Source: Sulfurovum sp. (GTDB lineage: Bacteria > Campylobacterota > Campylobacteria > Campylobacterales > Sulfurovaceae). From it: 33,252 nt of DNA. The position numbers and the translations under genes are program-made. The DNA is taken from positions 1 to 33,252 of the forward strand of contig JALWHT010000184.1 of assembly GCA_026983515.1 (NCBI GenBank), read 5' to 3'. A model generated the notes under the pieces. That model was not told the DNA's origin. It searched no databases and was given only the letters and a program-made list of their open reading frames with translations. Numbering within the stretch: the stretch's first letter is position 1; each line of letters opens with the position of its first letter. Positions 1-23,803 of this stretch are shown here, one piece after another.

Positions 1-113
1 GGGAGGTAGAAAGAAGCTATATTCAACCACAAAAGCTGGAACTGGTGATGGTTAAGCGTGAGGAGTTGCTGCAAAGTGCAGCCTAGTAAGACGAGAAGTG
101 AAATTGCGAACAT
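1..113 (-). CDS. possible overlapping ORF running off the left edge (lipoprotein-like start)
   Basis: Reading the minus strand from an ATG at 113, a frame stays open to the window edge. It begins MFAISLLVLLGCTLQQ, a short hydrophobic stretch ending in LLGC that resembles a lipoprotein signal with its lipobox cysteine. It overlaps the end of the FtsH-like gene by 62 bases and has no convincing ribosome binding site. Two readings are possible: a separate downstream lipoprotein gene, or the continuation of the FtsH-like protein in another frame after an indel, since the hydrophobic LLVLLG could match the FtsH segment before GGRxAEE. Only 37 codons are visible, so neither can be decided. Confidence 0.2.
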   Translation of the reverse strand, partial: MFAISLLVLLGCTLQQLLTLNHHQFQLLWLNIASFYL

Positions 114-1083
114 TTAAGGACACTATCTCATAGAAAAGTTCCTCTTTTGTAATGTTGGACATAGGTTCGTCGGCATTATATGAGACAAATCCCAGTGTTT
201 TACTTCGGGGTGCGATGGTAACCTGCTCAATTTTAATATGTGGCAGAAGGATCGTGGAGAGTACAGCATGTGCAGCTTCGTGATAGGCAGTCATTTCCAG
301 CTCTTTTTCAAGGTTGCGTACCATTTGCTTGTCAATTTTGTGACCGTACTTGATAATATTGATCTGTTCTATGAGAATATCTTCGGTAATTTGCTTTTTC
401 CCCTGTTCTATTGTTTCAAGTACCGCCATACGTCCAAGCCGCTCAAGATCGACGGCACTCATGCCGTTAATGTATCGCACGATGCGCTCTTTGTCAATTT
501 TTGGATCATGTGGTTTTTTCAGGATTTTTTCAAGGAAAAAGCGTCTGGCATCTTTATCAAGCTTGTCAACTTCAATAAGAAAATCCAGTTTCTTTGGTGC
601 AGTAAGGACTTCGTCTACCGCCTCAAGGGTTTCAGACGTGGCAATGGTGAAAACCCTTGCTTCTGTCTTTTCGAGCACTTTGGCAATGTCAGAGAATGAG
701 ACATTGGTAAGAGTACCCTGCAGAAGACCTTTGATGTCAATATCTTCAAGAATGACAAGAGAAGGTGCATGTTTGGAGGCTTCTTTGTAAACCTCTTTGA
801 TATAGTCAATATCGAAAAGCAGGGAACCGGAGATTTCATAGTAGGGCATATCTGCTTCATGGGCAAAAGCACGAGCAAGCATACCTTTGCCGATATTGGC
901 AGGCCCGTAAAGCAGCAGCCCTTTTGGCAGAGGGGTGTCGAATCGTTCAAAGAGTTCAGGCTGTTTAATGATTTTTATAATGGTTTTTAATCTTGTTTTG
1001 ACTTTTTTATGTCCGACGATATCTTTAAAGCTTATGGTTGAACGTAGGGCTTTTGGGAGTTCGGTTTTGGTATGACTGGACAT
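52..1083 (-). CDS. FtsH-like AAA/zinc-peptidase protein, degenerate and C-terminally short
   Basis: This 343-residue protein has an FtsH architecture: an AAA module (about residues 15-235) followed by the start of a peptidase domain with the zinc motif HEAAH (268-272). Several catalytic elements are altered. Walker A reads GPANIGKG (60-67), with Gly for the usual Thr/Ser. Walker B is ILEDID (111-116) instead of IDEID. Sensor 1 is ATS rather than ATN. The second-region-of-homology arginines are missing (APKKLDFLIE, 162-171). There are no N-terminal membrane helices, and the protein ends about 70 residues after HEAAH, before the expected third zinc ligand and the GGRxAEE segment. The last 20 residues do not look like the family, so a frameshift near the end is possible. 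H. pylori and Campylobacter carry, from memory, a second FtsH-like gene besides true ftsH, and this may be its relative. It is probably not an active protease in this form. Confidence 0.75.
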   Translation of the reverse strand: MSSHTKTELPKALRSTISFKDIVGHKKVKTRLKTIIKIIKQPELFERFDTPLPKGLLLYGPANIGKGMLARAFAHEADMPYYEISGSLLFDIDYIKEVYKEASKHAPSLVILEDIDIKGLLQGTLTNVSFSDIAKVLEKTEARVFTIATSETLEAVDEVLTAPKKLDFLIEVDKLDKDARRFFLEKILKKPHDPKIDKERIVRYINGMSAVDLERLGRMAVLETIEQGKKQITEDILIEQINIIKYGHKIDKQMVRNLEKELEMTAYHEAAHAVLSTILLPHIKIEQVTIAPRSKTLGFVSYNADEPMSNITKEELFYEIVSLNVRNFTSRLTRLHFAATPHA

Positions 1084-12921: not shown

Positions 12922-14340
12922 ATGAAAAAAACACTGCTTGTCCTGTGTTTGTCACTGCCTTTGTTTGCAGACGTAAAGCACCTTAGCCTGCCTCAGGCAA
13001 TCAAAATACTTAAACATGATAACCTAGAGCTGAAAATTGCAAAATTCAATGCTCGTATGAAAAAACTGGAAGCGGAAGCAGTCCAGGCTAAAAATTACGG
13101 AAGAGCAGATTTGACCATTGCTGCCATTCGCTCTAACGATGCGTTGAATGTTTTTGGTTTTAAGCTGCAGAGCCGTGAAGCAACGTTTGCTGACTTTGGA
13201 TTTGCAGATTTCATGGGAGCGATTGGACAAGGTGCTATACAGGCGAATGGTGACTTCGGTGCATTTTCACAGGGGCTTGTACAAAATGGAGACAGTATTT
13301 TACAAATTGCACCTAATGATCTGAACTATCCCGGTGCACGTAACCATTTCCAGACCAAATTTTCCTATAATGTACCTCTCTATACCGGAGGGAAGCTGAC
13401 AGAATATGGACGTATCAGCAATATGCTGTACCAGATGAGCCTTCTCGACCGCAGAAAACTGTTCAATGCGAAAGTGTATGAGACTAAAAAGGCTTTTTAC
13501 GATATTTCTTTGGTAGAAAATTATATTGTCAATCTCCGTAAAATCATTAAGAATATCAGTACATTGGAAAATGTTGTAAAGTCTATGCAGAAAGAGGGCT
13601 ATGCCAAGGAAACGGATCTGTTTGAAGTGCAGGCAAGAAAGGCGGAAGCACAAAGTATGTACAATCAGGCGAAACTCAATCGCGAACTTGCCTATCAATT
13701 TCTTTCGTTTTTGCTCAATACTGAAGTCAGTAGCATCCGACATGTGCATGAATCGGCACCGATGCCACGTGTCAGTAAAAGAGCTCTGGCAATGAATAAC
13801 CTCGATATTCAGAAGGCGGAGCTGGGGCTTCAGATAGCAAACCATGCGATGCATCTCGAAAAATCGCGTTATCTCCCTGAAGTAGGTGCTTTTGCAGAGT
13901 ATGGCAGTGCCGATAACCATTTATGGAATGACTTTACCGGCAAAGATGCCTACACTGTCGGAGTACAGATAAAATGGAACCTTTTCAGCGGTGGAGAGGA
14001 TGAGAAAGAGGTAGAGAAAGCACGTCTGAAATACCTGAAAACCAAAGACCAGGTTGCCCTTGCACGCAAAGGGATCGCATTGAAAGTCAAAAAACTGCGT
14101 ACAGAAATTCTCAGTATTGATTCTGATATTCACAGTTACCGTACCCAGCTCAAGTATGCACGCAGGGTGTATGAGAACTATAAAACACGATATAAAGAGG
14201 GGATGGTTTCCATCTCTGATGTACTCATTAAACAGTCAAAGGAGCTTGAGATGCTGCTTAAACTGCTTGGTGCAAAAAACAAACGTAATACAAAAATATT
14301 TGAACTTGACAGTATCTTAAACAGAGGAGGCGAAGTATGA
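12922..14340 (+). CDS. TolC-family outer membrane efflux channel
   Basis: 472 residues with a cleavable signal peptide (MKKTLLVLCLSLPLFA, then DVKH). The long amphipathic helical segments and two-fold repeat are those of the outer membrane factor family. Helical hairpins rich in Lys, Glu and Ala (about 200-290 and 390-460) alternate with strand-like stretches (YNVPLYTGGKLTEYG and VGVQIKWNLFSGGEDEKEVEKA, the classic TolC repeat pattern). The start at 12922 follows TAGGAG and is confirmed by the signal peptide; a longer frame upstream runs through the promoter. It is the first gene of the efflux operon and its stop overlaps the adaptor start. Confidence 0.9.
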   Translation: MKKTLLVLCLSLPLFADVKHLSLPQAIKILKHDNLELKIAKFNARMKKLEAEAVQAKNYGRADLTIAAIRSNDALNVFGFKLQSREATFADFGFADFMGAIGQGAIQANGDFGAFSQGLVQNGDSILQIAPNDLNYPGARNHFQTKFSYNVPLYTGGKLTEYGRISNMLYQMSLLDRRKLFNAKVYETKKAFYDISLVENYIVNLRKIIKNISTLENVVKSMQKEGYAKETDLFEVQARKAEAQSMYNQAKLNRELAYQFLSFLLNTEVSSIRHVHESAPMPRVSKRALAMNNLDIQKAELGLQIANHAMHLEKSRYLPEVGAFAEYGSADNHLWNDFTGKDAYTVGVQIKWNLFSGGEDEKEVEKARLKYLKTKDQVALARKGIALKVKKLRTEILSIDSDIHSYRTQLKYARRVYENYKTRYKEGMVSISDVLIKQSKELEMLLKLLGAKNKRNTKIFELDSILNRGGEV

Positions 14341-15146
14341 AAAAATGGATGGTAATGGCACTATTGGCCGCAACAACGTTGTTGCATGCAGTAAACTTTG
14401 AATTGAGTGGGGCAGTTGTATCGGACAATCAGAAAATGATGACCAGCCGCTACATGGGGTATGTAAAAAAAATGGCTGTCAGTGAAGGGGACATTGTCAA
14501 AAAAGGGCAACTGCTTTACGAGATTGATTCTAAGGACATTGAAGCAGCAGAACGTCAGGTTGATCTGGCAATTTCCCAGGCAAGACTTGCACTGCAGATG
14601 AACCGTAACCAGTTGAACAATGTACTGATCAACCTCGCCCGTCACAAGCGCCTTTATAAAAAAAATATGGTTTCAAAATTTGAAGTGGAAAACCTTGAAC
14701 TTGCGGCAAAAAACCTTAAAGACATGGTGAAGATTGCACAGGAACAGGTAAATCAGGCACTGGCGAAAAAAGAAGAAGTGCTCAATCAGTATAAATATCT
14801 TCGTATTACCGCACCGAACGATGGTGTCATTGTTGCCAAAAAAATCAATGAAGGTGAGATGGCAATTCCAGGTATGCCAGCAGTGGTACTGACGGATTTG
14901 AGTCATCTGAAGATTGTGGCTGAAATTTCAGAAACCCAGTTGCAGCATATGCATCTTGGTAAAAAAGTTTTAGTGGAAATACCATCCCTTGGCTACAAGA
15001 CTGAAGGAACGGTTTCTTCAATTATTCCTAACTCCAACCCGATGACACACAAATTTAAGATCAAGATCAAGTTTGACCACTCCAACAAATCGATCTATCC
15101 TGGTATGTATGCAAAAGTCATAGTAAGGTCTGACGATGGGAAATAA
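14337..15146 (+). CDS. RND periplasmic adaptor (membrane fusion protein), short form
   Basis: 269 residues, shorter than the usual 350-400. A signal peptide (MKKWMVMALLAATTLLHA) is followed by a first half-lipoyl motif (GYVKKMAVSEGDIVKKGQ), a single alpha-helical hairpin (about 60-150), the second half-lipoyl motif (ITAPNDGVIVAKKINEGE) and a beta-barrel domain to the end. The C-terminal membrane-proximal domain seems absent. It bridges the permease and the TolC-like channel. GAGGAGG precedes the ATG, which overlaps the upstream stop, and its 3' end overlaps the permease by 11 bases. A clear paralogue lies at 23018-23803. Confidence 0.88.
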   Translation: MKKWMVMALLAATTLLHAVNFELSGAVVSDNQKMMTSRYMGYVKKMAVSEGDIVKKGQLLYEIDSKDIEAAERQVDLAISQARLALQMNRNQLNNVLINLARHKRLYKKNMVSKFEVENLELAAKNLKDMVKIAQEQVNQALAKKEEVLNQYKYLRITAPNDGVIVAKKINEGEMAIPGMPAVVLTDLSHLKIVAEISETQLQHMHLGKKVLVEIPSLGYKTEGTVSSIIPNSNPMTHKFKIKIKFDHSNKSIYPGMYAKVIVRSDDGK

Positions 15147-16740
15147 GCAAGAGTATCAGGTTACCGATTATGCAGGAAAACTTGCCAAAGGGTTTCTGCA
15201 CAACCCGCTTACCGCTGTATTGGGTGCCTTTTTGCTTATTATGGGCTATCTTGCACTCAATGTTATGCCACGTGAAGAAGATCCTCAAATTGCTATCTCC
15301 GGAGGTGCTGTGGTCGTTGCTATGCCTGGTGCCAGTCCACGACAGATTGAAAATATCATTATTAATCCGTTGGAGCGAAAACTGAGGGAAATCAAGGGTA
15401 TTGAACATATCTATAGTCAGGCCTTCAACAATTACGGTACAGTCAGTGTCATGTACTACATTGGTGAAAATCGTGAAGATGCCAACCTCAAGCTTTATGA
15501 CAAGGTGATGCAGAACATGGATAAAATGCCCAAAGGGGTAATGCAACCGCTGATCAAGCCGTTTGATATCGATATTGATATTCCTATTCTTACGTTTGCA
15601 TTCTATGCAAAAGACAAAAAAGTAAATGACGTTGAACTTTTCAAGGTGGTACGTAAACTGCAACAGAAGATCAATGCGGTAAAGAATGTTGCCAAAACAA
15701 CCTTGAAGGGAAACCGTATTGAACAGTACAATATTGAAGTTGATATGGGGAAGCTTTCTGCCTACCATTTGTCACTTGGACAGATTATGAAGGCAGTACA
15801 GTCGGTTGCTGTCGATGTACCTGATGTCAAGGGAAGAACCAAAAAAAATGAATTGCTTATTTTTGGGGTGAAGAATGCCATTGAAAATATTGATGATGTG
15901 AAAAATGTTATTGTTGCCCAATATATGGGATCACCAATTTACCTGCGTGATGTTGCCACGGTCAAAGATGGTATTGACTTTCAGAATTTCAAGACAGCTG
16001 ATGTACTCTTTAAAGACAAACCGAATGAAAAACTTGGCAAAGAAAAGAGCCAGGTAACACTGACTGTGTCCAAACTGGCAGGTACCAATGCAGTTTTTGT
16101 AGCAGAAGATGTATTGAAGTTACTTGAGGAACACAATGTTGAACTTAATAAAATAGGGATTGGCTATGTTGTGACCCGTAACTATGGTGTACGTGCGGAT
16201 GAAGCGGTTAATGAGCTGATGCATCATCTTATCATTACCATTGTGATCATTGCTCTGATGCTGGTTTTTGCACTCGGATGGAAAGAATCCCTCATTGTTA
16301 CCTTTACCGTCCCTGCCATTTTGGCTGTGACACTGTTTGTTGCCTACCTGACAGGACAGACAATTAACCGTATTACCCTCTTTGCTTTCCTGCTTTCGCT
16401 GGGACTCCTGGTTGATGCGGCGATCATTGTTATTGAGAATATTCATAGACATTTGCACGCCCATGATGTGGAGGACAAAGATATGGACGAACTGCTCATT
16501 GAAGCAACCGATGAGATCGGTGCACCAACGAACGTGGCAACACTGGCGATCATTTTGACGATGGTGCCCATGGCATTTGTCGGGGGTATGATGGGATCGT
16601 TTATGAAACCCATTCCGCTTAATGTACCTGTAGCACTTGTTGCTTCGCTCTTTGTTGCCTATATTTTTACACCGTATCTGAGTTTGAAACTTTTGAAAAA
16701 ACCGACACATCACAAGCACGATAAAAAAGGGGGTAAGTAA
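15136..16740 (+). CDS. RND efflux permease, N-terminal half
   Basis: 534 residues equal to the first half of an RND (AcrB-type) permease. TM1 is at about 22-46 (FLHNPLTAVLGAFLLIMGY). A large periplasmic loop follows, with the conserved MPGASPRQIENIIINPLE segment. TM2-TM6 lie at about 360-520. TM4 carries LGLLVDAAIIVIENIHR; here Asp427 is followed by Ala, where AcrB has two Asp. The ORF ends after TM6 in a Lys/His-rich tail. RND permeases are normally about 1040 residues in one chain, and the second half is the next gene, which starts on the last base of this stop codon (TAATG). The two together should make one 12-helix protomer powered by proton flow. Confidence 0.88.
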   Translation: MGNKQEYQVTDYAGKLAKGFLHNPLTAVLGAFLLIMGYLALNVMPREEDPQIAISGGAVVVAMPGASPRQIENIIINPLERKLREIKGIEHIYSQAFNNYGTVSVMYYIGENREDANLKLYDKVMQNMDKMPKGVMQPLIKPFDIDIDIPILTFAFYAKDKKVNDVELFKVVRKLQQKINAVKNVAKTTLKGNRIEQYNIEVDMGKLSAYHLSLGQIMKAVQSVAVDVPDVKGRTKKNELLIFGVKNAIENIDDVKNVIVAQYMGSPIYLRDVATVKDGIDFQNFKTADVLFKDKPNEKLGKEKSQVTLTVSKLAGTNAVFVAEDVLKLLEEHNVELNKIGIGYVVTRNYGVRADEAVNELMHHLIITIVIIALMLVFALGWKESLIVTFTVPAILAVTLFVAYLTGQTINRITLFAFLLSLGLLVDAAIIVIENIHRHLHAHDVEDKDMDELLIEATDEIGAPTNVATLAIILTMVPMAFVGGMMGSFMKPIPLNVPVALVASLFVAYIFTPYLSLKLLKKPTHHKHDKKGGK

Positions 16741-18464
16741 TGAAAGGATTGGAGCATTTCATTTATACCATCCTTGGTAGTAAAAAGAAAAAGCGTTTGG
16801 TTATTATTTTGACAGCATTGGCATTTTTCGGTACGCTGATGATGTTCCCTACCAAGATGGTACGGGCAAAGATGCTTCCTGGAAAGAGTGACAATACGTT
16901 TTCCATCTATGTCGATACACCTACGGGAAGTTCCATTGAACAGACCAGGCAGGTAAGTGAATGTGTTATTGATGCGATCAAGGATGAAAAGAATATTATG
17001 AATATTGAACTTTTCCTTGGTCAGGGGATCCCGCTCGACTATGCCGGACTTGTAAAGGGATCGGCAATGAAACACACAGAAAATGTTGCAGAAATCGCTG
17101 TGAATCTGACAGACAAGCATACACGGAAAGAACCTTCATTTTTAATGGTTCATCGTTTAAGACCTGTAGTAAAAAGTAAGTGTGAATCGGTGGTTAAAGG
17201 CTCCAATATCCGCTTTATAGAACAACCTGCAGGTCCTCCTACGCTGGCAGCTATTGTTGTAGAAGTACATGGTGATAATCTGGATAAGATCCGTACTATC
17301 TCCTACCAGACAGCCAAGATTTTGCAAAAAACAAAAGGGTTGGTCGATATTGATGTAATGGCGGATGATATTTTCGATAAATATGAACTGATCCCCGATA
17401 AAGAAAAGATTGCGCGTAGTGGTTTGAGTGTAAAGCAGGTGAATAACATTATCTATCTGGCATTTGAAGGTATGGAGATTGCACATAAAAACTCCAAAAA
17501 CAACCCCGACCAGATTCCTATTTTTCTTATTCTTGCCAAACACAGCAAGACTTTTCCGGATAAAAGCCGTCTTGCACTGTTAAGTAAACTTTCCTCCCTG
17601 AACCTGATGAATCAAAAAGGGATGATGGTACCGTTGAGTGAAGTTGTGAATATCAGAAAGGTCAAGTCCAATCCTAAAATCATGCATAAAGATCTTGACC
17701 GTATGATCAATGTAACTGCCGAGACAGATATGGTTTCACAGGTCTACCCGCTGCTGGATGCACGTGAAAAGATGATCAAGTATTTTTCGCGTGAATACAT
17801 TGTTACCAAAGAGCCGGGAATGAGTACGTACATGTTTGACCTCCATCTCAAGGATAAAAAAACAGGAGAGAAGTTTTTGCTGCGATGGGACGGGGAGATG
17901 AAAGTTACTCTCGATACGTTCCGTGATCTTGGTGGTGCCTTTATTGCCGCATTGGTCCTGATCTTCCTGTTGTTGGTGATTTACTACAAAAGTTTTTCTA
18001 TCAGCGGTATTATTCTGCTTGGATCGTTCCTTTCGCTTATCGGGGTGATCCTCGGACACTGGGTGGCAAATTTCTTTACAAGTGAAACGTTCTTCCTGAC
18101 GGCAACGTCACTCATTGGCTTTATCGCCCTGATGGGAATCAGCTCGCGTAACTCGCTGCTTCTCATTGACTTTACCAAGTCACTGATGGAGTGTCATGGT
18201 ATGGAAAAACGCAAAGCTATTGCGGTAGCGACAGCCACCCGTGCGAAACCTATTGCTTTGACAGCTGTAGCGATCATTCTCGGTTCCGCACTTTTGGCAT
18301 CTGACCCAGTCTTTGGAGGACTGGGAGTTGCTCTTATTTCGGGAACTGTTGCCGCTGTTTTTGTATCGCTCATATTTGTACCGGTACTGATGCATAACTC
18401 CAAAGCGATGGATTTTAAACCGGCTGACCAGTGTGATATAGATAATATCTCTATTACCAAATAA
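16740..18464 (+). CDS. RND efflux permease, C-terminal half
   Basis: 574 residues equal to the second half of an RND permease. TM7 lies at about 18-38 (RLVIILTALAFFGTLMMF). The periplasmic loop has the PTGSSIEQTRQVSE segment and TM8-TM12 are at about 395-560. TM10 has GISSRNSLLLIDFTKS, with Arg470 where AcrB has Lys940. The start is set by the AGGGGG run about 8 bases upstream and by the TAATG overlap with the first half. It is in a different frame from the first half, and a stop (TAA 16734-16736) in its own frame just before the ATG argues against a simple fused readthrough. It is the last gene of the operon. Confidence 0.88.
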   Translation: MKGLEHFIYTILGSKKKKRLVIILTALAFFGTLMMFPTKMVRAKMLPGKSDNTFSIYVDTPTGSSIEQTRQVSECVIDAIKDEKNIMNIELFLGQGIPLDYAGLVKGSAMKHTENVAEIAVNLTDKHTRKEPSFLMVHRLRPVVKSKCESVVKGSNIRFIEQPAGPPTLAAIVVEVHGDNLDKIRTISYQTAKILQKTKGLVDIDVMADDIFDKYELIPDKEKIARSGLSVKQVNNIIYLAFEGMEIAHKNSKNNPDQIPIFLILAKHSKTFPDKSRLALLSKLSSLNLMNQKGMMVPLSEVVNIRKVKSNPKIMHKDLDRMINVTAETDMVSQVYPLLDAREKMIKYFSREYIVTKEPGMSTYMFDLHLKDKKTGEKFLLRWDGEMKVTLDTFRDLGGAFIAALVLIFLLLVIYYKSFSISGIILLGSFLSLIGVILGHWVANFFTSETFFLTATSLIGFIALMGISSRNSLLLIDFTKSLMECHGMEKRKAIAVATATRAKPIALTAVAIILGSALLASDPVFGGLGVALISGTVAAVFVSLIFVPVLMHNSKAMDFKPADQCDIDNISITK

Positions 18465-19337: not shown

Positions 19338-21512
19338 TTACTTCTTCTTTCTGAATACGCGCTGTGACTCTTTGAGAATAGCATCAGGGACTGTGGCAAT
19401 GGTCATGAATTCAGACATTTTCAGCAGTGGGTACATTACTGAAATGTAGTACTTTGGATCCATAATGTAGGCTTTGTCCCCTTTAATAAGAACAGGGTAT
19501 GGAAGCAGTGCGGCATTGTTGGTACCGATGCGATAAGGGAACTTTTGTGTACGTTTTCTGAATTTCATACCAAAGAGTATGGTTCCGTTGGGGAGCTTCT
19601 GTTCAAAGACAACCTGTTTTTTGCCATGAATATTTTGGTATAGGTCACTGCCCATAGCAACTTCTACCATGTCTTTATATTGTGGCATACCATTCATAAA
19701 ACGGTAATTTGGAAGCAGGTTGTACTTGAGTTTGTCTTTTGAGTTGACAAGCCCTTTGAAACGCTTTTTTATTTTAGCAAGGAGTGCTTTTGGGACTTTG
19801 GTGTCAAAATTGTCTTTTTGAATGAATGCACGTGCCATATAGAGGGGATTGGTAATAGAGATATGATTATCTTTTTTATCGACAAGCAGACGCAGTGATG
19901 CAAGGAATTCTGAATTGTTGTCTACTGCGAATTTTTCAAGTGCATCATTGGTAAAGACAATGGTTATCAACTCTTTTTTCTTCCCAAGCGGCGCAACGGC
20001 AAGTATTTTGAAGCCTGCCTGTTCCAGTTTCTTTTGGGCTTCGGCAACATCCATGTAGGGTGCTCTAAGATAGGTAGAAATGCGGCCCTTGTCAATCTCG
20101 CCAATCTTTGTAGTCGTATTGGCCGGCTTTGTTTTTGCAGTACGTGCTTCAAGAGGGATATACCCTGGTGGTACACGTTTGGAAAATTGAATACCACGCA
20201 TGTTTGTCAATCCGCCATTTTCAGTGTGAACTTTGACAGGCGTTGGTACTTTGGGGGGAACAGGAATAACAATATTGACAGTATTTCCGCCATTTTCAAT
20301 CGTTTGTGTTTTCGCTTTGGCCGGTGTTTTGGAAGTGACTGCCGGTTGAGGAGAAGACTTTGCAGCATTTTTTGTTTTTGTGACCATCTTTTGAGGTGTC
20401 TGCTTATCTATTGACGTTTGTTCCTCTTTACTGAAGATAGTACCCGGTACAGAACCATATGGTGTCATGTTGACCTTGATCGGTTTGGGTGTCTCTTTAA
20501 GCGGGTTGACATTGGTGACTGCCTGCATGCCCATATCAGTAAGGATCTGCGGAATTTCTCTATCGAGTTTGTCCATCCATCCTGCGCGTTTTGCCGAAGT
20601 GATATGCAGGGTATTTTTGACGTTGGCAAGGCTTGGCATGCCAAGATACATCTTATTGCTGTCTTTTTTAATAAAGACATACATGGTGCAGGGCGCAAAA
20701 AGTCCTGCATCTGGGCGTGCACCTTTTGTATCGAAAACATTGTAGGAGTAGGTCAGGTGACAAAGTGAATAGCTCCAGAACGCATCGAAACCTTTGAGGT
20801 AATCCTCCCCGTTGTCTGTATCCATGAAGTTGTGGAATCCGGCAATAAGGTAGTGTTTTGCAATGAAAGCCAATTCAAATTTGTTCTGAAATTCTTCAAT
20901 GAATTCGTCAAGTTCTTCTGGTCGCTCAAACGTGTATTCAAAAGTGATCATCTTCTGTTTGGTTACATTTTTATATGGGATATATTCGGTTTTGTACTTT
21001 AATCCGTTGGATTTGAAATATGACTCTACAAAAGCGTCGAGTTTATCGAAGGACGCAATGAACGGTTTACGAACACTCTCGTCGGTAATACCAAGCATAT
21101 CAAGCATCGCTTTTGGCATTAGGTGGCCGACATGGGTGACTTTGTCAGATTTTTTCTTGTAGATGAGCATATTGAATGGAGAGAATCCTGCCAGCCTCGG
21201 ATCGGTATTGAAAAGTTTCATAACCAGGTCATCGTTGACAGCCGGGAGAAAACTGAGTACATCCAGTGTGGTAGAACCATATTTGGCCTCATATTGGTCA
21301 TTGACACGGTGGTGTGGATCGGCCATTACAAAACCGATTTTTTTGAGTTCCTTTTCAACCAATGTGTTGTATGCCTTTTCAACATTGCCGTCGAGTACAT
21401 AAAAGACAGCCAGCGCGTTATCACGGTCACTGTTGGGTGAGGGTGTAGCAGAGATCAGTATGGGAAGGAGAAGGATCATGAGAGATCGTAGTAAATGTTG
21501 TCGTGTGTGCAT
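19338..21512 (-). CDS. exported protein with four DUF302-like modules
   Basis: 724 residues with an N-terminal signal sequence (RSLMILLLPILISATPS). Four segments share the pattern 'hydrophobic strand, charged turn, strand, P-x-hydrophobic helix': PFNMLIYKKKSDKVTHVG (about 112), CTMYVFIKKDSNKMYLGMP (about 274), LRLLVDKKDNHISITNPLYM (about 541) and PYPVLIKGDKAYIMDPKYYI (about 669). This resembles the core of DUF302 (TT1751-type) domains, strongest in the third. A Pro/Thr/Lys-rich linker (about 341-470) separates modules 1-2 from 3-4. I prefer the ATG at 21512: minus-strand AAGGA lies 5-6 bases upstream, whereas the ATG at 21518 would overlap it. The function is unknown; DUF302 proteins are often found with envelope and redox genes. 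Family assignment is from pattern recognition only. Confidence 0.7.
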   Translation of the reverse strand: MHTRQHLLRSLMILLLPILISATPSPNSDRDNALAVFYVLDGNVEKAYNTLVEKELKKIGFVMADPHHRVNDQYEAKYGSTTLDVLSFLPAVNDDLVMKLFNTDPRLAGFSPFNMLIYKKKSDKVTHVGHLMPKAMLDMLGITDESVRKPFIASFDKLDAFVESYFKSNGLKYKTEYIPYKNVTKQKMITFEYTFERPEELDEFIEEFQNKFELAFIAKHYLIAGFHNFMDTDNGEDYLKGFDAFWSYSLCHLTYSYNVFDTKGARPDAGLFAPCTMYVFIKKDSNKMYLGMPSLANVKNTLHITSAKRAGWMDKLDREIPQILTDMGMQAVTNVNPLKETPKPIKVNMTPYGSVPGTIFSKEEQTSIDKQTPQKMVTKTKNAAKSSPQPAVTSKTPAKAKTQTIENGGNTVNIVIPVPPKVPTPVKVHTENGGLTNMRGIQFSKRVPPGYIPLEARTAKTKPANTTTKIGEIDKGRISTYLRAPYMDVAEAQKKLEQAGFKILAVAPLGKKKELITIVFTNDALEKFAVDNNSEFLASLRLLVDKKDNHISITNPLYMARAFIQKDNFDTKVPKALLAKIKKRFKGLVNSKDKLKYNLLPNYRFMNGMPQYKDMVEVAMGSDLYQNIHGKKQVVFEQKLPNGTILFGMKFRKRTQKFPYRIGTNNAALLPYPVLIKGDKAYIMDPKYYISVMYPLLKMSEFMTIATVPDAILKESQRVFRKKK

Positions 21513-21634
21513 GGGCATCCTTTTTCTCGAAGTACATCTCTATTGAATGGATCAAAGAGAAATATATAGAGTAGAATAGCATAATATTTATATAAAAAAT
21601 GAATAAAAATGATAATATTTGATAAGTAAAATTG

Positions 21635-21662
21635 AAAAGCTACCAAAGGTATCTTTGGTAGC
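21635..21662 (-). terminator. rho-independent terminator of the LEA-like gene
   Basis: GCTACCAAAG (21639-21648) and CTTTGGTAGC (21653-21662) form a perfect 10-bp stem with a 4-base loop. On the minus strand it is followed by TTTT, 26 bases after the stop of the gene at 21688. The rest of 21519-21687 shows no gene. Confidence 0.85.
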
Positions 21663-21687
21663 CGAAATAAAGCGGGGATAAAAGCGC

Positions 21688-22401
21688 TTATTTATCGTCA
21701 GTCGCTTCTTTGACTGATTTTCGTGTCTCTTTTGAAACAGTTTTTGCAGAATCGTTTGCATTGTCTGAAACTCTTTTGACAGAATCTCTGCTGTCATGTG
21801 AAATGGTCTTGGTAGAGTCATTGGCATTGTCAGAAACTTTTTTCACTGAATCTCTTGTATCGTTAGAGACAGTTTTTGTTGTGTCATCAAGGTCATTGGA
21901 AACCTCTTTCACTGAATCTCTTGTATCGTTAGAGACAGTTTTTACAGAGTCTCTTGAATCGTTAGAGACAGTTTTTGTTGCATCGTTGATATCTTTTGAA
22001 ACAGAGATCGCAGAGTCTTTCATATCTTTGGAAGCGATGGTCGTTGAATCTTTCAGGTCTTTGGTGGTGTTGGTGATGGAGTCTTTGGTGTCTTCTGCCA
22101 CTTCCACTGTTGCATCACGGACATCTTTGGAAGTAGAAACCTGGGCTGTTTTAAGATCATCAGAAACTTTGACAGAGGTATCTTTTGCATCATGGCTTAC
22201 ATTGGTAACCGTTCGCTCTGCACTTTTACTGGTTTCAACCGCACCGTCTTTCATAGACTCGACACTGTCTTTAGCATCTTTACTCATGCTGATGGCTGCC
22301 TCTTTCATGTCTTTGAACATATCACCGAAGCTGAAGTCTGCCTGTACACTTGTCATGAGTGCAGCAGCTGCTACACAGGAGATTAATAAGGTTTTTTTCA
22401 T
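21688..22401 (-). CDS. periplasmic LEA-like protein made of 11-residue repeats
   Basis: 237 residues: a signal peptide (MKKTLLISCVAAAALMTSVQA), eight linking residues, then eighteen consecutive 11-residue units (residues 30-227) in unbroken phase and a ten-residue partial unit. The later units are nearly identical in form, for example DSVKTVSNDTR, DSVKEVSNDLD, DSVKKVSDNAN and DSAKTVSKETR. The composition is Asp, Lys, Ser, Thr and Val, with almost no aromatic residues. An 11-residue amphipathic period is the hallmark of group 3 late embryogenesis abundant proteins, which fold on drying and protect proteins and membranes; apolipoprotein-like or surface coiled-coil proteins are alternatives. The start is supported by AAAGGA upstream and by the signal peptide. 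It is monocistronic, with a strong terminator. A role in periplasmic desiccation, salt or envelope stress is inference. Confidence 0.85.
   Translation of the reverse strand: MKKTLLISCVAAAALMTSVQADFSFGDMFKDMKEAAISMSKDAKDSVESMKDGAVETSKSAERTVTNVSHDAKDTSVKVSDDLKTAQVSTSKDVRDATVEVAEDTKDSITNTTKDLKDSTTIASKDMKDSAISVSKDINDATKTVSNDSRDSVKTVSNDTRDSVKEVSNDLDDTTKTVSNDTRDSVKKVSDNANDSTKTISHDSRDSVKRVSDNANDSAKTVSKETRKSVKEATDDK
21721..22314 (-). repeat. tandem 33-bp coding repeat array
   Basis: The DNA counterpart of the eighteen 11-residue units. Most copies are diverged, but a 37-base stretch beginning TTTCACTGAATCTCTTG occurs identically at 21841-21877 and 21907-21943, exactly 66 bases (two units) apart, and part of it recurs near 21957. 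This points to recent local duplication or gene conversion. Confidence 0.9.
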
Positions 22402-22535
22402 CGTTGTATCCTTTTTATTTTTTTGATGTACTACAATCTTATCAGCAATACTTTAAATAAAAACTTAAATTTTATAAAAAAATGTCATCAATTTATGTGA
22501 TGTTTATAAATAGAATTGAGTAATTAAAAACAATA

Positions 22536-22544
22536 TGCTACAAT
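22536..22544 (+). promoter_or_regulatory. extended -10 promoter of the cytochrome c gene
   Basis: TGCTACAAT with the hexamer at 22539-22544, 37 bases before the ATG; AAGGAG at 22571-22576 is the ribosome binding site. The whole 180-base divergent region 22402-22581 is very AT-rich. Confidence 0.55.
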
Positions 22545-22581
22545 GCTGATGTATGATTTATGAAACGTATAAGGAGACACT

Positions 22582-23007
22582 ATGAAGAAACAATGGTTAC
22601 AGGTTGCGACTGCTCTTATTATAGGTAGTACAACATTCGCAAATGCGGAAGGTTATACCCAGGCTGACAGGATCATGGATATGCAGAAGATGGCACAGGC
22701 AATGCAGGATATTCAGTCCGGACTGCTGTACAACAACCTTGATATTATTAAGGCGGGAACGAAAGTCCTTAAAGATACAATCGTCAAGATTCGTCCGATC
22801 GATGAAGAGGTCAATAACAAAGATATTTACGAAAAATGGCTTAATAATAATCTCAAGATGACCAATAAAATCCAGAAGAAAATCAGAAACAAGGCACAAA
22901 CCCTTGAAGAGCGTTTTGCCGATGGTGATGCCGTACAGGCACTTCAGGAATACAGTAAGATCATCGGTCAGTGTATGCAGTGCCATGTACGTTTGAGAAA
23001 ATGGTAA
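22582..23007 (+). CDS. small exported class II-type cytochrome c
   Basis: 141 residues with a signal peptide (QVATALIIGSTTFANA) and a mostly helical body. A single heme-binding motif CMQCH (Cys131, Cys134, His135) sits only six residues from the C-terminus. A late CxxCH after a four-helix body is the arrangement of cytochrome c-prime and related class II cytochromes, which handle electrons or bind small ligands such as NO in the periplasm. It lies 10 bases upstream of the orphan adaptor gene, in an apparent two-gene operon. Its partner and role are unknown. Confidence 0.75.
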   Translation: MKKQWLQVATALIIGSTTFANAEGYTQADRIMDMQKMAQAMQDIQSGLLYNNLDIIKAGTKVLKDTIVKIRPIDEEVNNKDIYEKWLNNNLKMTNKIQKKIRNKAQTLEERFADGDAVQALQEYSKIIGQCMQCHVRLRKW

Positions 23008-23017
23008 CCGGGTGTCA

Positions 23018-23803
23018 ATGAAAAGATTTTTACTTGTAACGTTTTTACTCATCACAAGTGGGTGGGGAGGTGATATTGTCTTGACCGGTACAGTGATTTC
23101 GGATGGTCAAAAGATGATCGGAAGCCGCTATATGGGGTATGTCAAAAAGGTCTATGTCAAACTCGGTGACAAAGTCAAGCGTGAAGATGATCTTTATGAG
23201 ATAGAATCAGCGGAGTTTGACATCCTTAAAACACAGTCAAACCTGATGCTTGAGCAGGCACAGATTGCGTTGGAGTATTGGAAAGACCGTCTGCATGTAC
23301 TCAACAAGAAAAAAGAGAATGCCAAAAAGAAATTTGGCATGACCGGGTTTGACTGGGATGACCTTGAAGGGCAGATCGAAAATGTCAATGCCATGATGGA
23401 GTCGACCAAGATCATGGTCAAACATGCGGCTGAGCAGGTCAAGCAGATGGCAGTGGTGTTCAACTATCTGAAAATGAAAGCACCCTCTGACGGTGTTGTG
23501 GTACAAAAGAACATTAAAGTGGGCGATATGATCATGCCGGGCATGCTGGCAATCGTTATTGTAGATACGGAAAACCTTGAGATCGATGTGTCGATTTCAG
23601 AGAGTATCATCGGCAAGGTAAAAGAGGGAATGCGTATTCCTGTAGAGATTCCTTCCTTGCACTACAGTACCATTGGTACGATCCATGCCATTATCCCCGA
23701 TGCTAACCCTATGACGCACAAGATCAAAATGCGTGTGATGTTCGATAAAAAAAAGCTCAATATTTTCCCCGGTATGTATGCCAAAGTGAGAATTCCAAAC
23801 TAA
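23018..23803 (+). CDS. orphan RND-type periplasmic adaptor
   Basis: 261 residues, a paralogue of the adaptor at 14337-15146. Both share the mature N-terminal pattern SD-x-QKM-xx-SRYMGYVKK, a short helical hairpin, the second lipoyl half (MKAPSDGVVVQKNIKVGD) and the C-terminal PSL-x-Y and IIP-x-xNPMTHK segments. A signal peptide (MKRFLLVTFLLITSGWGGD) is present. I chose the ATG at 23018; a GTG two codons earlier is possible. No permease or outer membrane gene follows, since the next gene is an oxidoreductase with its own promoter. It may serve the pump encoded at 12922-18464, a permease elsewhere, or be a remnant of a lost operon. Confidence 0.85.
   Translation: MKRFLLVTFLLITSGWGGDIVLTGTVISDGQKMIGSRYMGYVKKVYVKLGDKVKREDDLYEIESAEFDILKTQSNLMLEQAQIALEYWKDRLHVLNKKKENAKKKFGMTGFDWDDLEGQIENVNAMMESTKIMVKHAAEQVKQMAVVFNYLKMKAPSDGVVVQKNIKVGDMIMPGMLAIVIVDTENLEIDVSISESIIGKVKEGMRIPVEIPSLHYSTIGTIHAIIPDANPMTHKIKMRVMFDKKKLNIFPGMYAKVRIPN

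Follow-up and report, generated by a model that had tools for sequence, protein, structure and literature searches.

What kind of protein is encoded by a Sulfurovum gene whose product is exported and consists almost entirely of 11-residue repeats? The window analysed here (the whole 33,252-nucleotide stretch) carries this gene at positions 21688-22401 on the minus strand, read 22401->21688, and a sequence-only reading had proposed a periplasmic LEA-like protectant with an unbroken, perfect-phase array. We asked how far the repeats, the family and the gene neighbourhood agree with that proposal, and which other roles they suggest.

Repeat architecture of the exported protein

The gene comprises 237 codons, has AAGGA ahead of its ATG start and homologs in other genomes, and is followed by a strong intrinsic terminator (21638-21663, minus strand; 11-bp stem and T tail, seen in the sequence and in a terminator scan). 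An antisense open reading frame of 238 codons that spans the whole gene (21710-22426, plus strand) is unsupported: it arises as a mirror image of the repeat codons, and homologs have comparable frames on the opposite strand. Judged by eye, the N-terminus MKKTLLISCVAAAALMTSVQA|DFSF is a typical signal peptidase I substrate, with a type I signal peptide over residues 1-21 (22339-22401, minus strand) and cleavage at VQA|D. At this junction A21 is invariant and D22 nearly so in 59 homologs, which supports the export claimed in the sequence-only reading. A lipoprotein is unlikely because the lipobox-like Cys9 is not conserved, being absent from Sulfurimonas-type homologs; in place of the lipobox signal peptide of Ag473- and BilRI-type envelope lipoproteins there is the type I site.

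The mature part (216 residues) is rich in Asp, Ser, Lys, Thr and Val and lacks Cys, Trp, Tyr and Pro, with two His. Its three Phe are its only aromatics, all within the N-terminal DFSFGDMF, leaving residues 62-237 free of aromatics. Asp outnumbers Glu 37:9, charged residues make up 38%, net charge is -9 and mean hydrophobicity is about -0.05. Identity at a lag of 11 residues is 0.39, against 0.109 ± 0.021 in shuffled sequences (10,000 shuffles, maximum 0.205), and hydrophobicity shows a sharp periodicity peak at 3.667 residues. The 11-residue periodicity is far beyond chance, and the amphipathic repeats described earlier are borne out.

The count of eighteen complete 11-mers also stood (residues 23-33, 34-44 and sixteen at 52-227, followed by a partial unit at 228-237), but the array is neither unbroken nor in perfect phase. 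A head, DFSFGDMFKDMKEAAISMSKDAK (residues 22-44; 22270-22338, minus strand), was delimited from the sequence and its homologs and consists of two degenerate hendecads holding the sole mature aromatics. It is followed by a 7-residue unit, DSVESMK (residues 45-51; 22249-22269, minus strand), which occurs at identical spacing in 100 of 100 homologs. Residues 52-237 (21691-22248, minus strand) then form the sixteen complete hendecads and the partial one in a single register, as seen from periodicity and register scoring. Scored with a profile made from more distant homologs, the 11-mers at 30 and 41 are in a different register from these sixteen, an offset caused by the 7-residue unit at 45-51. 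The apolar seam (F25-M28-M32-A36-M39-A43-V47-M50-A54-T57-A61-V65-V68...) nevertheless runs uninterrupted across the heptad, with spacings of 3,4,4,3,4,4,3,4,3,4,4..., giving the continuous 3-4-4 seam, compatible with heptads, of hendecad coiled coils. Hendecads mixed with heptads are a trait of coiled coils. Across the family, 1900 of 1934 11-mers from residue 63 onward are in phase, 27 of the 34 exceptions being the final unit before the C-terminus, and 511 of 653 internal indels (78%) are multiples of 11. The register beyond the head is strongly protected; this phase constraint and the repeat geometry are both direct observations.

Plotted on an 11/3 helical wheel, the repeats show a weakly apolar stripe, narrow and lined by Ser, in columns 5, 9 and 2. 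The acidic edge lies in columns 0 and 8, where Asp predominates, and the basic edge in columns 3 and 10, with Lys or Arg. Summed over residues 63-237, the left flank has a net charge of -25, the seam side +1 and the right flank +19. Across 786 distinct repeats, the charge in column 8 covaries with that in column 10 on the opposite edge (r = -0.45), the two being mostly both present or both absent; this fits helices lying side by side in register, with the reservation that repeats duplicate and the events are not independent. AF2 monomer models contain long helices only, at low confidence (mean pLDDT 42 and 54 in two models). A beta-solenoid was rejected on these models and on the periodicity peak, at 3.667 and not 2.2, and searches of solved structures gave no sequence match and no meaningful relative. 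On its own the protein may be disordered, since a seam of Val/Thr/Ala/Ser with few Leu is weak, and Asp, Ser, Thr, Asn and Val are poor helix formers.

A constrained family and its gene neighbourhood

Residues 22-150 (21952-22338, minus strand) are 100% identical in amino acid sequence to those of two close species at a dS of 0.9-1.0, with dN/dS ≤0.01; dS is only roughly estimated once it approaches or exceeds 1, and silent sites in this same comparison are near saturation. For the whole protein, dN/dS is 0.02, in the range of elongation factor P (EF-P) and the RND permease. Purifying selection is thus demonstrated, and the constraint on the 129-residue stretch is as strict as that on EF-P; more than anything else, this constraint speaks against a generic protectant tolerant of sequence change.

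Homologs were found in 30 of 60 relatives and, in a phylum-wide sample, in 12 of 298 genomes and 6 of 58 genera. A scan of named genomes gave 141 loci; the 80 listed among these are named as MAGs of Sulfurovum, Sulfurimonas, Nitratifractor or other Campylobacterota, apart from a few that have broad labels only, in agreement with the aquatic Campylobacterota host that had been surmised. Viral contigs contained no relatives, and a viral origin was set aside. The protein thus belongs to a Campylobacterota family of Sulfurovum, Sulfurimonas and relatives that has neither a name nor a Pfam model, and our literature search found no paper on it and none that deals with DUF302 alongside RND genes in this group. 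Novel in this case are the family itself, for which Pfam has no model, along with the conserved heptad, the extreme constraint and the module of genes around it.

Homologs range from 172 to 498 residues, and two or three gene copies occur in 13 of 77 loci, with four in one region (L031). Tandem paralogs in L032 (6852-7688 and 7926-8696) are the same along most of the sequence and diverge in their C-terminal tails, which suggests gene conversion or recent duplication. Many homologs (in L036, L094-L097 and L054) end in a conserved tail type, SDDDYKEYLRLKAKYEK, which is missing from the window protein.

Upstream and divergent lies a gene for an exported protein of 141 residues with a C-terminal CxxCH (22582-23007, plus strand), called cytochrome c'-like or class II from weak matches to PF01322, below the curated Pfam cut-off, and to cytochrome c' in the PDB. 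It is followed by an HlyD/RND membrane-fusion adaptor (23012-23803, plus strand, likely start 23018; PF16576, 8.8e-28). The next gene downstream encodes a DUF302-containing exported protein of 726 residues (19338-21518, minus strand), whose PF03625 match (8.8e-05) is just under the cut-off and whose homolog is above it (2.7e-15). Beyond it is an RND pump operon on the plus strand, with a TolC-family outer-membrane factor (12922-14340, in a frame open from 12916; TIGR01844, 2.2e-22) and, from profile matches, an adaptor (14337-15146) and an RND permease (15136-18464). The two adaptors are paralogs at 38% identity. The permease is split mid-protein into adjacent genes (15136-16740 and 16740-18464), a split that recurs in homologous loci L031, L036 and L038.

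This arrangement is widely kept. Among the 71 distinct loci with enough upstream sequence, the divergent CxxCH cytochrome gene is present in 68 and the adaptor gene in 66; the DUF302 gene is a neighbour in 63 loci, in most of them downstream on the same strand, and, of 30 loci that extend over 12 kb or more, 18 show an RND half. Loci from other families of the order (L036, L038) keep these genes together in a different arrangement. Across 59 relatives, a close homolog of the cytochrome was found in 19 genomes with the hendecad gene and in none without (Fisher p = 5e-9, uncorrected for kinship), and some relatives with the hendecad gene, mostly incomplete MAGs, gave no detectable close cytochrome homolog. 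A Sulfurovum indicum S0 transcriptome is reported to show induced TolC/HlyD genes, under locus tags not tied to this module. The gene context is observed, and such a neighbourhood does not in itself prove interaction between the hendecad protein and its module partners.

The divergent intergenic region (22402-22581) contains a strongly conserved block in an alignment of 14 loci. About 100 bp are conserved, including a box, TTTAAGTTTTTATTTAAA (22452-22469, minus strand), and extended -10 sequences on both sides, TGATAAGAT (22436-22444, minus strand) and TACAAT (22539-22544, plus strand), which were located by the alignment together with a promoter scan that alone was not above chance. This stretch is kept between species that have silent sites close to saturation. 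Used as a regulon search of the genome assembly, the box returned a single exact copy and no further targets.

Comparison with known 11-residue systems

The protein shares with group 3 LEA proteins (LEA_4, PF02987, e.g. DrLEA3 of Deinococcus) tandem 11-residue amphipathic units, hydrophilicity and a variable repeat number. The LEA_4 profile, however, scored 13.3 bits (E 0.185) against a cut-off of 51.1, and LEA_4 was not among the Pfam families listed for 15 family members at E≤10; LEA membership is not supported. The chemistry and charge layout of the group 3 consensus TAQAAKEKAGE (PMC6559209) are likewise lacking. Asp, Ser, Thr and Val replace Ala, Lys and Glu, and the acidic and basic edges lie on opposite sides, whereas the consensus carries 0 on the left flank, +16 on the seam side and -16 on the right flank. 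Its helix propensity is also higher, with a mean cost of 0.31 kcal/mol per residue versus 0.48 in the hendecad protein. The conserved heptad and head, export and a fixed gene context set the protein further apart.

An exported LEA form had been called unexpected, yet there is a Gram-negative precedent. BilRI of Aggregatibacter actinomycetemcomitans is described in PMC8096337 as an outer-membrane lipoprotein with LEA_4 and eleven 11-mers; like the hendecad protein it is exported, and it is disordered, predicted helical and without aromatics. It differs in its lipoprotein anchor and LEA_4 membership, and that part of the source reports no comparable operon context. The best NCBIfam match is another envelope protein, the Neisseria Ag473 family lipoprotein (NF047840; E 1.4e-5), although at 25.8 bits against a cut-off of 100 and with a lipid anchor. 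Given BilRI and the Ag473 family, export of 11-mer proteins in Gram-negatives is not new.

Two further systems resemble the array. Perilipin 4/apolipoprotein-type helices (PF01442) share the 11/3 helix, weak apolar face, segregated charges and preference for Asp over Glu, whereas the hendecad protein is far more charged, bacterial and periplasmic, and contains the conserved heptad. The Pfam apolipoprotein profile matches 15 of 15 family members tested (best 2.8e-8), and the window protein is far below the cut-off, at 21.3 bits versus 90. Right-handed hendecad coiled coils share the 3-4-4 apolar spacing, the tolerance of a heptad and the oppositely charged edges; unlike theirs, the core residues here are weak, and no solved structure is matched. 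A phasin or PHA-granule protein was dismissed, the match being weak and the protein exported.

Candidate roles in the envelope

Our preferred reading, held tentatively, is that of a periplasmic self-associating coiled coil acting as a structural accessory of an envelope module; we infer its location, oligomeric state, partner contacts, scaffold role and co-regulation. After export to the periplasm, the array, including its one heptad, would form long alpha-helices that associate laterally through the continuous 3-4-4 Val/Thr/Ala/Met seam. An acidic edge facing a basic edge would aid pairing and yield a near-straight rod or bundle. The nearly invariant residues 22-150 may dock the protein to partners, while the C-terminal shaft would gain or lose 11-residue units with its register kept. 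The rod could thus serve as scaffold or spacer for a module of the cytochrome c'-like protein, the RND-type adaptor and the DUF302 protein, probably also including the nearby split RND pump and its TolC, and its gene may be co-regulated with those for the cytochrome and adaptor through the shared conserved promoter region. Judging from its RND pump, cytochrome and DUF302 protein, the module may couple transport in the envelope to redox chemistry. Three features lead us to prefer the coiled coil: the seam is preserved through the conserved heptad, the two edges complement each other, and length varies mostly by whole units. Tandem paralogs and the wide range of homolog lengths argue against a fixed ruler.

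Most of this anatomy is common to the coiled coil and its main rival, a perilipin-like coat stabilised by many weak contacts and lateral acid-base pairing of helices, as proposed for perilipin 4, which is unfolded, acts in a length-dependent manner and requires asymmetric charges (PMC5889406, PMC8064757). The aromatic-free stretch, the Asp preference, the charges segregated to both edges and the family-wide apolipoprotein matches speak for such a coat, as does a hydrophobic moment of 0.36-0.42, compared with 0.257 reported for perilipin 4. We consider it unlikely, however: charged residues are 38% versus 15% in perilipin 4, the net charge and near-zero mean hydrophobicity fit poorly, a conserved heptad is unexpected in a pure 11/3 surface helix, and there is no evidence for periplasmic droplets or granules. 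Ranked below it, and unlikely too, is a LEA-like protectant, a disordered exported filler that would fold into helices under salt stress or as water is lost, shielding periplasmic proteins and membranes. Export, hydrophilicity, variable numbers of poorly helix-forming 11-mers and the BilRI precedent (PMC8096337) suit this role. The LEA_4 score and charge layout do not, and EF-P-like constraint over 129 residues together with a nearly fixed gene context disfavours a generic filler; prokaryotic LEA genes are reported to lie at scattered sites (PMC8096337), and the named relatives live in permanently wet habitats. On balance, a protein dedicated to this envelope machinery is more probable than one that protects generally against drying.

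It is quite improbable, in our estimate, that the protein is a dedicated periplasmic polymer or coat in which hendecad helices join by their oppositely charged edges into sheets or filaments whose length can be adjusted, holding the cytochrome c'-like protein and RND/TolC adaptor together or coating a hydrophobic substrate such as zero-valent sulfur; if true, this would be a kind of bacterial envelope scaffold not previously described. Least probable of all is a chaperone or carrier, whose disordered array would bind its client, the cytochrome c'-like protein or an RND substrate in transport, only transiently and form no rod. The near-constant divergent cytochrome gene with its shared promoter region and the constrained N-terminal part are in keeping with this, but strict register conservation and in-phase expansion would be left unexplained, and a mature protein with two His and no Cys offers no obvious metal or heme ligands.

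What appeared as a lone LEA-like curiosity is thereby placed in an uncharacterised envelope module that is conserved among Campylobacterota of vents and seeps. Since its natural variants keep the head almost unchanged and differ chiefly in how many repeats they carry, by increments of 11, the family is a clean test of whether long periplasmic 11-residue arrays act as scaffolds, coats or protectants.

Two other genes of the window deserve mention. The C-terminal part of a cytochrome P450 lies at the contig edge (32716-33252, minus strand; PF00067, 4.9e-49); P450s are not known to be common in this bacterial group. At the opposite end, an FtsH-like AAA+ protein with an HEAAH motif (52-1083, minus strand) is only 343 residues long.
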